Source: Halorussus limi
GTDB taxonomy: Archaea > Halobacteriota > Halobacteria > Halobacteriales > Haladaptataceae
DNA: 64,000 bases
Assembly (NCBI RefSeq): GCF_023238205.1
Contig: NZ_CP096661.1
Span: 186,001-250,000, forward strand
Reading direction: 5' to 3'
A program made the translations under genes and the position numbers. Of this stretch, positions 9,543 to 13,792 are shown one piece after another. The notes below the pieces were generated by a model, which ran no database searches, was not told the origin of the DNA, and was given only the letters and a program-made list of their open reading frames with translations. Each line of letters starts with the position of its first letter. The first letter of the stretch is position 1.

Positions 9543-10484
9543 ATGGCCCGGCCAAATCGCCAGCGTGAGCGGACGCGCAAATCCACGTCGAACGAAGAAA
9601 CTACCGAGAAGGAGGGGGAAGGTCAGCAATGTCCTGAATGCAGTTCTGAAAATCTAGTTACGAACGGGGACAGTAACGAGGTCGTTTGTGAGGAGTGCGG
9701 GCTCATTATCGAAGAACAGAATATCGACCGCGGGCCGGAATGGCGTGCGTTCAATCATAGTGAACGCGAGAGTAAGAGTCGAGTCGGTGCCCCGACGACC
9801 CAAACAATGCACGATAAGGGACTGACGACCCAGATCGACTGGAAGGACAAGGACGCCTACGGGCGGTCGCTGTCCTCTGAGAAGCGTAGTCAGATGAATC
9901 GTTTGCGCAAGTGGCAGGAACGAATCCGCACGAAGGACGCGGGTGAGCGTAACCTCCAGTTCGCCCTGTCAGAAATCGACCGGATGGCCTCCGCACTTGG
10001 CGTTCCCCGGTCGGTTCGAGAAGTCTCATCGGTCATCTATCGGCGGGCACTCAAAGAAGATCTCATTCGCGGGCGGTCTATCGAGGGGGTTGCGACCAGC
10101 TGTCTCTACGCCGGGTGTCGCCAAGAGGGCATCCCACGGAGTCTTGACGAAGTCGCGGAGGTTTCTCGCGTCGAAAAGAAGGAAATCGGCCGCACGTATC
10201 GGTATATCGCGCAAGAACTCGGTCTCGAGATGAAGCCCGTCGACCCCAAAGAGTACGTGCCACGTTTCAGTTCCGACCTCGGAGTAGGTGAGGAAGTGAA
10301 AATGAAGGCGAACGAGATTATCGACGAGTCTGCCGAGCAGGGCCTGCTTTCTGGAAAGTCGCCGACGGGGTTCGCGGCCGCGGCCATCTATGCGGCGTCA
10401 CTACTCTGTAACGAGAAGAAGACCCAGCGCGAGGTTGCCGAGGTCGCGCAGGTCACCGAAGTCACGATTCGGAATCGCTACTAG
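9543..10484 (+). CDS. tfb: transcription initiation factor TFB (second copy), truncated at the C-terminus
   Basis: A 313-residue TFB close to the mainstream haloarchaeal type: zinc-ribbon Cys 30, 33, 49 and 52, B-finger GPEWRAF, and cyclin repeats containing [20 protein letters not shown] and ACLYAG-like motifs. The frame stops at TAG (10482-10484) right after VTIRNRY. Directly behind it the same frame reads EQIEAMGLH and ends at TAA (10512-10514), which is the normal C-terminus of the family. A single CAG-to-TAG change thus removes the last ten residues, the end of the final cyclin helix. The protein is probably made but slightly shortened; it may be impaired. Confidence 0.88.
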
Positions 10485-10617: not shown

Positions 10618-10848
10618 ATGGAGCGGTCCTCAACATCTCGGCCACTACCGACATACGCAGAGGAGGTCCTCGATAGTTTAAAATCGAAAATTGGGCCGAC
10701 AGTAGATGCACTTCCACGAGACGAAGTTGAGGCATACTTACACACAGAAGGATTTGAGGACTCGACAATCGATGTGGCGCTTGATGAACTCTTGAATCGC
10801 GGCTATATCTACGTCGTGAACGACCAAATTCGGCTCACAGACAGTTGA
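10618..10848 (+). CDS. small winged-helix protein
   Basis: A 76-residue acidic protein. After a polar start it reads 'EEVLDSLKSKIGPTVDALPRDEVEAYLHTEGFEDSTIDVALDELLNRGYIYVVNDQIRLTDS', an alpha-helix pattern followed by a short hairpin wing (GYIYVVNDQIRL). This is the shape of a compact winged helix, as in many haloarchaeal DNA-binding or protein-binding adaptors. It lies 103 bases after the TFB gene in the same direction, so it could be co-transcribed, but no direct functional link is proven. Confidence 0.65.
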   Translation: MERSSTSRPLPTYAEEVLDSLKSKIGPTVDALPRDEVEAYLHTEGFEDSTIDVALDELLNRGYIYVVNDQIRLTDS

Positions 10849-11059: not shown

Positions 11060-11956
11060 CTATTCCCACCAGCGACCGCGCTCAGGGAAGAACATGGTCG
11101 TCCACCCGGTCACGGCGAGGGAAACCCGTCCTTCGTACCAGTTTCGGGCCGCTCCGCGAATGGTCACCTGCTCGCCTTCCTCCATCCACGGCGCCCGCGA
11201 GTTCTTCCAAACCGTCACTCGGATTCGCCCGCTTTCGTCTTCGATGAGTCCGACTTGCGCGATGCTTGGATGCGATGGCTCCCACAATGTGTCGACACGA
11301 CCTTTGATGCTCACCTCCTTGCGATTCACGTCTTCGAGTTTGCCGATTGGAATCACGTGTCCCGGCGCTGTCTGCAATTCTTCGTGAACGCCGACGACTG
11401 CACTCATCAGGCTCGCTCCTTCGACCACGCGTTCGGCCAATCGCCGACTAATCGCCGCTCTTGTCCACCCATCCAACTTCTCGCTCAACCGCCGCGTCTG
11501 CTCGTTCACGCTCGATAGCTCGTCCTGGGATAGCTCCTCACGTGGGTCCGGACGCTCTGGGTCCGCCATTGGGGTCACGCTTGCCGCCCGCTTCTGGAAC
11601 TCCCGACGTCGCTCCGCACTCCGCTTTGCTGCGATGTCCCGCGCTCGCTTTGCCCGACCATCCTGCTTACTGACTTTGGCTCTGACGCTGATGCGCTCTA
11701 GTTCTGCTTCCCGCGCCTGAATGCGCTCTTCCTGTTCGAGGGTCGCACCCTGAATCCGTTCTTTGCTCGTCTCCTTGATTCCGTCCGGATGGTTTGCATC
11801 CACCTTCGCCTGTGTTTCCTGCTCGACCGTCGCTCTGAGTTCGGGCGTCTCCTCGACAACCTCGAAGCCATCCGCATCGACTGCTCGCTCGTCCGCCTGT
11901 TCGAGTGCCTGTTCATCGACCGAAACGACCTTGCCGCTTGCGTTGTTACTAGACAT
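11060..11956 (-). CDS. OB-fold nucleic-acid-binding protein (RPA/SSB-like)
   Basis: A 298-residue protein. The first half (about 1-150) is a charged, coiled-coil-like region rich in Glu, Arg and Ala with no recognisable domain. The second half has an OB fold of the replication protein A type (about 195-290): 'VSIKGRVDTLWEPSHPSIAQVGLIEDESGRIRVTVWKNS' and 'EGEQVTIRGAARNWYEGRVSLAVTGWTTM'. Such proteins bind single-stranded DNA in the cytosol. Homologues are common on haloarchaeal plasmids and islands, usually without RPA-operon partners, as here. The upstream leader is GC-rich and full of hairpins (see 11957-12103 and 12253-12278), which suggests post-transcriptional or autogenous control. Confidence 0.8.
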   Translation of the reverse strand: MSSNNASGKVVSVDEQALEQADERAVDADGFEVVEETPELRATVEQETQAKVDANHPDGIKETSKERIQGATLEQEERIQAREAELERISVRAKVSKQDGRAKRARDIAAKRSAERRREFQKRAASVTPMADPERPDPREELSQDELSSVNEQTRRLSEKLDGWTRAAISRRLAERVVEGASLMSAVVGVHEELQTAPGHVIPIGKLEDVNRKEVSIKGRVDTLWEPSHPSIAQVGLIEDESGRIRVTVWKNSRAPWMEEGEQVTIRGAARNWYEGRVSLAVTGWTTMFFPERGRWWE

Positions 11957-12103
11957 TGGAGTCCTGACTCCTGAAGGCGCTCACGCGCCCGACACCGCGA
12001 TGTTCCAGCATCGCGGATTTCCTCGACAACCACAACCAACAGACCCATCTGCGCTCTCGCTCGCGCCTTCGCTCGCGTCCCCTGTGGGCGCGAGCGAGAG
12101 CGC
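11957..12103 (-). promoter_or_regulatory. hairpin-dense leader of the OB-fold gene
   Basis: Reading away from the ATG at 11956 there are four perfect inverted repeats in 147 bases: GGAGTC/GACTCC (11958-11971, touching the start codon), GGCGC/GCGCC (11976-11989), CCGCGATG/CATCGCGG (11995-12016) and a 17-base stem with arms 12051-12067 and 12087-12103. A fifth, GGGCGCTC/GAGCGCCC, lies at 12253-12278. A TATA-like AGTATATGG on the minus strand near 12387-12395 could start a leader of about 400 bases. The pattern suggests a folded 5' leader; its function is unknown. Confidence 0.45.
12051..12103. repeat. 17-bp perfect inverted repeat
   Basis: The left arm GCGCTCTCGCTCGCGCC (12051-12067) is exactly complementary to the right arm GGCGCGAGCGAGAGCGC (12087-12103), with a 19-base loop. 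It is the strongest hairpin I found in the window. It is not followed by a T run, so it does not look like an intrinsic terminator. Confidence 0.85.
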
Positions 12104-12738
12104 ACTTAGAGAGAGGATGCATCCAGCACCGCGCGCCGTCTCGGCCGCCGCGAGCGTCCAGCGGAGTATGCGTCGCGGGGTGAGCATCCACGGCGCGCAA
12201 CCCCCGGCGGATACCCGCTGGCGTCGAGACCAGATTCACTTTAGCCCGGACCGGGCGCTCGCGGTGCGGAGAGCGCCCGCACGCCCGGAATGGTCGGTCG
12301 CGAGCGACGCGGCGGCCGGCACGCGGCGAGCGGGGCGGGCCGTCGAAAAACACCGTTCAACCAGGACCGACGCTCAGTGACATACCCATATACTGGCGGG
12401 CTCAGAAAGGACGAGGCTGTCTCGGTCATCCCCCGACCCTACAAGCACTATAGGTACGAGGAGCGCAGTCGTGGTCGCGGGATGCCGAAGGGCTTTCAAG
12501 GAAGAATCTTGTCGGTCCTCGCTGTGTTATATTCTCGACAGAGCCGTCCTCCGGCCGTCCGAATTCTAGTCTTCCGGCGAAGAGGACGGACGAAGCCACC
12601 CAGCGTTCAAGTAGTGGCCGTTGCTCTCTCCTCATCGACTCTCGTTAGAGAGAATTTGACGGTCGGAGGTAGGCGCTCGCCGGAGCTATTTCCAGCTCAA
12701 TCTAACTCCTGTTATTTGACCAGGAGGGATTCTGTGGT
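12104..12738. other. gene-free region left of the IS element
   Basis: No supported gene. The part to about 12380 is extremely G+C-rich and encodes only arginine-rich nonsense in all frames. From about 12390 composition becomes normal; a 69-codon minus frame at 12426-12635 is possible but has no recognisable content. CTCCTG/CAGGAG flanks a 9-base loop at about 12705-12726. Confidence 0.4.
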
Positions 12739-12746: not shown

Positions 12747-13792
12747 CGCTCTTATGTAGAACTACGGAAAGACCCTGTAGTTACACTGAGCCAGCCATAA
12801 TCTGGGAGTATGTCTTCTGCTCAGCCGGCGTTCGGCGCGATGTTTCGAGAGCTGATCGAGTTGGGCATCGTCGAGATCGACACCGAGCCGCTCGATGCGG
12901 CCATCGAGCGGCGACTCAAGGAATTCTGGGAGAATACGTCCTGTCCACGGTGCGGGCACAGCTCCGTTCAAACGTGGTCGCATCTCGACCGCGTGTGGTG
13001 CCGTGACTGCAACTTCAAGCCGGTCTACACCTACGGAACGCCATTTCATGAGAAGCACCTCACCTGCGGCGAGGTACTTCTCGCATTCACGCTCTACGCC
13101 GATACATTGCTCAGTATCAACCAGATCGCGCCCTTCCTCGGGCGAGCCTACAAAACCGTTCACACGGCGATTCGGGAGGCGGAAGCCGCGATCCATCGCG
13201 GCTTCCCCGTCGTCTGGGGCCTCCTCGACCAGACCATCGCTGGACCGACGCAAGTCGACGAATCTGGCACAGTCTGCTCGGGCTACAAGGGACAAGAGCC
13301 GCCGCGAAGCAGTCGTTCTCGCGGCGGTTCGTCCCAAACTGGCCGCTCACGCTGGCGGGGCCGCCACGGTGATCAGCTGACGCTCGTCGCGGCGTGCCGC
13401 GACTCGCTTCGCGTGATCCGCGGCCAGCTCGGCATCGACTTCAGCGGTGATCTGGAACCAGTGATTCAGGAGGCTGAAGACCTCTCCCAGCCACTAGGAG
13501 AGGTTTGGACAGACGGACTCCAAGCCTACAGAGAGATGGAGCGTGACCACCGAACAGTCGTACACAAAGAGAGATACGTATCCCCCGACGGCGTCCACAT
13601 TAACCAGGCTGAGTGCCTCTTTTCGCTTGTTCAACCGTGGCTGCGGAAGTTCCGCGGCCTGTCCAAGCAGGGCTTGGAACAGGCCGCTCACACGTTCGGC
13701 CTTATTCGGTCGCTAAACCTTGCCGGCGCATCCGTCGATATCATCATCGACTGCCTTGTTATGGGGGCGTTCCGCAGTTCTACATAAGAGCG
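12747..13792 (+). mobile_element. complete IS1595-family insertion sequence
   Basis: The 1046-base element is bounded by 23-base terminal inverted repeats. The left end CGCTCTTATGTAGAACTACGG (12747 onward) matches the reverse complement of the right end (13770-13792) with one mismatch. It is flanked on both sides by the same 8 bases, GGTGGGTT (12739-12746 and 13793-13800), a perfect target duplication of the length known for IS1595-family transposition. It carries one intact transposase gene, so it is a recent and probably active insertion. Confidence 0.93.
12810..13787 (+). CDS. IS1595-family transposase (ISH4-like)
   Basis: A 325-residue transposase. An N-terminal zinc ribbon (CPRCGH at about 45-50 and CRDC at about 68-71) is followed by a helix-turn-helix-like 'TLLSINQIAPFLGRAYKTVHTAIREAE'. 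The DDE-type catalytic core shows Asp in QVDESG, Asp in VWTDGLQAYR and the HINQAECLFSLVQPWLRKFRGL block that carries the third catalytic residue and the family's Asn. A low-complexity Ser/Arg/Gly insert lies at about 165-185 between the first two catalytic strands. The frame is intact and ends inside the right terminal repeat. Confidence 0.92.
   Translation: MSSAQPAFGAMFRELIELGIVEIDTEPLDAAIERRLKEFWENTSCPRCGHSSVQTWSHLDRVWCRDCNFKPVYTYGTPFHEKHLTCGEVLLAFTLYADTLLSINQIAPFLGRAYKTVHTAIREAEAAIHRGFPVVWGLLDQTIAGPTQVDESGTVCSGYKGQEPPRSSRSRGGSSQTGRSRWRGRHGDQLTLVAACRDSLRVIRGQLGIDFSGDLEPVIQEAEDLSQPLGEVWTDGLQAYREMERDHRTVVHKERYVSPDGVHINQAECLFSLVQPWLRKFRGLSKQGLEQAAHTFGLIRSLNLAGASVDIIIDCLVMGAFRSST

Follow-up and report, generated by a model that had tools for sequence, protein, structure and literature searches.

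The operator of T4 gene 32 is about 70 nt long and consists of a 28-nt pseudoknot and a less structured region in which UUAAA is repeated (PMC535899), while Frpo elements are non-coding, hairpin-forming plasmid sequences that immediately precede SSB genes and carry their -10 and -35 sequences in a stem (PMC11541004). The element analysed here, in a window of 64,000 nucleotides of Halorussus limi DNA, resembles the gene 32 operators of T4 and RB69 in being a structured leader at the Shine-Dalgarno (SD) sequence and start codon of a gene for a single-strand-binding protein, and by analogy autogenous control is plausible here (PMC535899); it differs in being GC-rich, about 540-750 nt long and shared with genes for TFIIB-like (TFB) proteins, and binding of a protein to it is hypothetical. 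With the Frpo/ssi elements of F-like plasmids it has in common that it is non-coding, forms hairpins and is found on plasmids immediately in front of SSB genes (PMC11541004), but it has no archaeal promoter word in its hairpins and carries an SD-like loop at the start codon. Riboswitches and ribosomal-protein leaders, such as the leader candidates of PMC7247131, are likewise conserved cis structures that end at the translation start and may have alternative pairings, whereas the haloarchaeal leader is much longer, has no Rfam match and is followed by plasmid SSB- and TFB-like genes rather than by metabolic or ribosomal ones.

The whole conserved leader lies at 12497..11957 on the minus strand, as do the parts of the leader described below, and runs for 541 nt from GAAAGCCC to the base before the ATG of the OB-fold gene, 1 nt ahead of that start codon. 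We set its extent by reading about 110 leaders. The 5' boundary is sharp at GAAAGCCC across 61 distinct upstream contexts, and the sequences further upstream are unrelated. Complete leaders mostly measure 534-764 nt (one is 911 nt), because hairpin cassettes have been inserted or swapped. The original prediction had assumed a leader of about 400 nt with a TATA-like site near 12390; that string is not conserved and is internal to the leader, which starts at 12497 and is about 540 nt long. Other parts of the prediction stood: all five inverted repeats upstream of the OB-fold gene are present where it had placed them, the stretch is richer in G+C (67-71%) than its surroundings (about 52-62%), and the hairpins are more than chance. 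The segment 11942-12395 (minus strand) folds at -236.3 kcal/mol, whereas its dinucleotide shuffles fold at -214.3 ± 5.7 (z -3.9, reached by 0/100); for the full 541-nt leader z is -4.5. The stretch encodes no protein, as had been proposed; a coding leader was ruled out, since the distances from block to block across relatives fall in all three residues modulo 3. No match to the Rfam 15 covariance models was found in the window, and the best relaxed matches in the leader were far below threshold. No description of the element was found in the literature searched, which included few subscription journals. We conclude that this is a real and widespread structured element, absent from Rfam and from the literature searched. 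No CRISPR-like or tandem repeats were found upstream of the leader; an IS1595-type insertion sequence lies 250 bp upstream (12747-13792), with a transposase ORF at 12810-13787 (PF12762) and 29-nt terminal inverted repeats that are 90% complementary.

We assessed six helices by comparing each leader's own arms with arms exchanged between leaders, using duplex energy or stem length as the measure. Pairing was kept while the sequences changed in blocks, and in none of the six did any swap reach the observed value. As a null, 84 random segment pairs gave z 0.18 ± 1.08 with a minimum of -1.9, so the effect is not a product of shared ancestry alone. The 5' domain P1 (12405..12497) opens with GAAAG and is closed by CCTTTC; its own arms pair at -18.8 kcal/mol versus -15.9 ± 0.4 when swapped, the best of 500 swaps reaching -17.0. 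It is followed by a block, GACCGACCATTCCGGGC (12283..12299), that is near-invariant in alignments, and by P5 (12253..12278), a swappable hairpin between two CCGGGC blocks which corresponds to the predicted 8-bp repeat GGGCGCTC/GAGCGCCC. Across leaders this site holds 45 distinct inserts, mostly hairpins, with own arms at -16.1 versus -11.1 ± 0.45 kcal/mol for swapped ones. A second block conserved in the alignments, CCGGGCTAAAGTGAATCTG (12231..12249), precedes P-central (12151..12226), in which CGACGCCAGC-GGGTA pairs with TAC-T-CCGCTGG around a one-base bulge. Here the variants are unrelated blocks (GGGTAT, ATTAAGC, ACCAAGC, GCTTC and others), every one matched by a complement and usually with the one-base bulge; the columns of this helix rank first in the covariation list, and own arms pair at -18.0 versus -12.1 ± 0.5 kcal/mol (z -9.3). 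A third conserved block, GGCGCGCGG (12129..12137), was predicted by folding to form an outer helix with the 5' block, but the swap test did not back this pairing.

The 3' part of the leader begins with P-long (12050..12104), the longest of the predicted repeats, which is a perfect hairpin of 18 bp rather than the 17 bp first given. Its own arms pair at -37.4 versus -34.9 ± 0.34 kcal/mol (z -6.9), and in L083, L124, L141 and L148 the arms are replaced by CCGCGCCGCGCC/GGCGCGGCGCGG while the near-invariant GAAGGCGC (12063-12070), which spans loop and 3' arm, is kept. P2 (11995..12016), the expected 8-bp repeat with the form CCGCGATG-CTGGAA-CATCGCGG, is replaced in relatives by CCCCGTG/CACGGGG, CCACG/CGTGG and ACTC/GAGT forms (own -10.8 versus swapped -8.5 ± 0.33 kcal/mol; z -6.4). 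P3 (11973..11989), GGCGC-GTGA-GCGCC, contains the 5-bp repeat predicted at 11976-11989 and runs into GCGCCTTC (11973-11980), which is complementary to GAAGGCGC of P-long. Finally, the start-codon hairpin (11957..11971), GGAGT-CAGG-ACTCC-A, has an SD-like loop and ends 1 nt before the ATG. The 6-bp repeat GGAGTC/GACTCC that had been proposed at 11958-11971 is present, although its sixth pair leaves a loop of 2 nt and the stem is realistically 5 bp. Own arms of this hairpin pair at -7.2 versus -3.8 ± 0.2 kcal/mol, and its mean stem is 4.73 bp versus 3.31 ± 0.13 over 1000 arm swaps.

A structured non-coding leader in front of the SSB/RPA-like OB gene is conserved among relatives: when homologues without conserved stems were sought, essentially all of about 110 leaders kept the hairpin architecture, with strong covariation. 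As in cis-regulatory structured 5' leaders, the conserved covarying structure directly precedes orthologous ORFs and shares their strand. The leaders are mosaic, with hairpin cassettes exchanged in blocks. Many of them (L014, L018, L063, L102 and others) carry an inserted two-hairpin cassette of the CCGGTGAGCAAGCTCACCGACGTCTCGTTCGCTTCGCTCACGAGACC type, always at the same site, which points to modular swapping among paralogues. In one locus (L188:701-955) a tandem partial second copy of the leader 3' domain lies directly upstream of the complete copy. Short leader fragments on plasmid-sized contigs (L210-L216, L218 and L219) gave no match with the 3'-domain model and are probably decayed leader copies. 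The view that the element is a palindrome-rich recombining repeat that travels with genes, its hairpins arising by template switching without a regulatory role, would account for this block exchange and for the strict Watson-Crick pairing, but we consider it very improbable given the non-palindromic blocks conserved across genera, the long-distance helix P-central with its compensatory blocks, the SD-like loops and the strict association with two gene families.

Those two families are unrelated: most copies precede a gene for the OB protein, and others one for a divergent TFIIB-like protein. The product of the OB gene of the window (11060..11956, minus strand, 298 aa) has an SSB/RPA-like OB fold at the C-terminus, with Pfam matches just above the curated cut-offs (PF21473, 31 vs 27 bits; PF01336, 24.5 vs 24 bits). 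It shares this C-terminal fold with the haloarchaeal RPA/SSB proteins (replication factor A, PRK07217) but forms a separate family with a long N-terminal part of unknown fold; the NCBIfam PRK07217 region scores 58 bits against a cut-off of 353. The nearest solved chain is 2kbn, and the AlphaFold model (mean pLDDT 55) was too poor for use. The TFIIB-like protein matches the TFIIB cyclin repeat (PF00382) at 38.3 bits (cut-off 23.6), while its Zn ribbon scores 22.6 bits, below the cut-off of 29. Fourteen of the 15 TFB homologues examined have the leader directly upstream, the model match ending at the start codon in clear cases. Among 33 model matches inspected singly, 25 lie before OB genes and 7 before TFB-like genes, and one has no recognised gene; no third downstream family was seen. 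In the window itself, a TFIIB gene (9543-10484) has its frame interrupted by TAG at 10482-10484, beyond which nine more in-frame codons (EQIEAMGLH) precede the next stop, and a 76-aa ORF without a Pfam match (10618-10848) is convergent with the OB gene.

The leader is found throughout much of the class. In the Halorussus limi genome its DNA matches six places, on the chromosome and four plasmid-sized contigs; four precede OB paralogues (70-100% identity) and two precede TFIIB-like genes, the first codons of which are similar to those of the OB gene. DNA matches also occur in 22 of 28 genomes of the family and in 155 plasmid records. We retrieved 80 named leader loci from many haloarchaeal genera, and a covariance model built on the 3' domain (the 3' third) matched 112 of 194 Halobacteria genomes and 50 of 65 genera, often with several copies per genome; Halobacterium salinarum and Haloferax species are among the carriers. 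In the set of genomes common to the model and OB searches, all 20 with a strong OB homologue had a model match, and 12 of the 13 OB-negative genomes had none, the exception (G044) having a TFB copy. Copies lie on haloarchaeal plasmids, many of them large and several typed MPF_T or carrying the leader near conjugal transfer or primase genes, and also on some chromosomes. A viral origin was considered and dropped, with no match in phage records or viral contigs.

The terminal hairpin is hypervariable: its 70 distinct forms comprise 22 different stems and 63 different loops. The loops sit 6-8 nt before the ATG and match the anti-SD sequence better than shuffled loops (3.81 vs 3.40 ± 0.09, 0/1000), while 3.4% of permuted words did as well or better (p 0.034); support for SD-like loops from this match is moderate. 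The loops of P2, analysed in the same way, had no anti-SD enrichment. Immediately 5' of this hairpin lies GCGCCTTC, which like its complement GAAGGCGC is almost invariant, and 33 of 121 leaders have no local GGCG partner for GCGCC yet keep both sequences. This suggests a long-range GAAGGCGC:GCGCCTTC pairing that would compete with the top of P-long, i.e. a switch.

The flush fit to the ATG, the SD-like loops and the occurrence of both gene families on the same strand speak for an mRNA leader, and we give a probability of about 0.6 to the reading that the element is a cis-acting structured leader of about 540-750 nt which would control translation of plasmid-borne SSB-like and TFB-like genes. 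The leader would be transcribed together with the downstream gene from an upstream promoter, and the terminal hairpin would hold the SD sequence and the approach to the start codon. In P-long, GAAGGCGC (strand B) would pair with GCGCC of the 5' arm (strand A); alternatively, its partner would be GCGCCUUC, which lies just 5' of the SD hairpin (strand C). The exchange between A:B and B:C, for which the evidence is near-invariance and not covariation, would tie ribosome access to the folded domain. The trigger, the least certain step, would probably be binding of the leader by the encoded nucleic-acid-binding protein, as for T4 gene 32 (PMC535899), acting autogenously and across paralogues that share the leader. 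In most copies the gene behind the leader is that of the SSB-like protein, but TFB-like genes carry the same leader. The autogenous RNA switch originally envisaged is thus borne out as to its conserved structured leader and not in a purely OB-autogenous form, which would leave the TFB copies unexplained; cross-regulation among leader-sharing genes would be the simplest extension.

The evidence for transcription is indirect. Inside the leader TATA-like words are depleted, occurring in 3 of 66 leaders against an expected 17%, and they have no conserved position, so that transcription probably starts upstream and includes the leader; no conserved promoter was found directly upstream of GAAAGCCC, and none is conserved on either strand. 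At one TFB-linked leader, three same-strand ORFs end before the leader (L016:1687-2946), one without a clear family, one weakly DUF5783-like and one ribbon-helix-helix. Similar ORF ends precede other copies, and at such loci the leader may be intercistronic. The strand statistics are equivocal. On the gene strand, leader helices contain 31 internal G.U and 56 A.C against 3033 Watson-Crick pairs, so no G.U tolerance was seen on the strand that would be transcribed, whereas RNase P from the same clade showed the bias expected on the true strand (57 G.U vs 27 A.C, 1344 Watson-Crick pairs). A G.U bias for the gene strand in raw duplex counts disappeared with a stricter count and the RNase P calibration. 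In 33 of 40 leaders the opposite strand had the greater folding gain over shuffles; applied to RNase P, the procedure called the correct strand in 26 of 30 cases, and the GT-rich linkers in the leader may confound it.

Near-pure Watson-Crick helices and strand tests that lean to the other strand lend some weight to a DNA-level role. The element could act as single-stranded DNA, its template-strand hairpins serving for priming or for the start of transcription on a transferred conjugative plasmid in the manner of Frpo/ssi, with early SSB/TFB expression on entry. The products fit, being an SSB-like protein and a transcription factor, as do the many copies on large plasmids, several of them with conjugation-related features, and the known position of Frpo immediately upstream of SSB genes (PMC11541004). 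We nevertheless regard this as unlikely: TATA-like words are depleted, with none at a conserved place in the hairpins, the SD-like loops and flush fit point to translation, and chromosomal copies exist. Quite improbable, in our estimation, is a free-standing structured non-coding RNA from either strand, processed off the gene and forming an RNP with the OB or TFB protein. Its size, many conserved blocks and sharp 5' boundary would suit such an RNA, and two calibrated tests favour the opposite strand, but conservation continues flush into the start codon, no antisense promoter was found in the coding start (TATA-like words in 1.4%), and no free copies with intact structure were found, fragments only. 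The leader reading is therefore preferred, and the element likely acts at the RNA level.

Haloarchaeal mRNAs are mostly taken to be leaderless, and to our knowledge few large structured leaders are known from these archaea. There is a small chance that the element is an archaeal counterpart of the bacterial ssDNA start elements, a hairpin array through which SSB/TFB genes of haloarchaeal conjugative plasmids would be the first expressed after entry, or that it defines an RNA-level trans-acting regulon in which a single leader fold would link SSB-like and TFB-like expression across some 50 genera. A long leader that has no Rfam family, occurs in most of the sampled haloarchaeal genera and is placed before two nucleic-acid-binding gene families on plasmids would provide a directly testable model for archaeal translational control, or for single-strand-DNA start sites.
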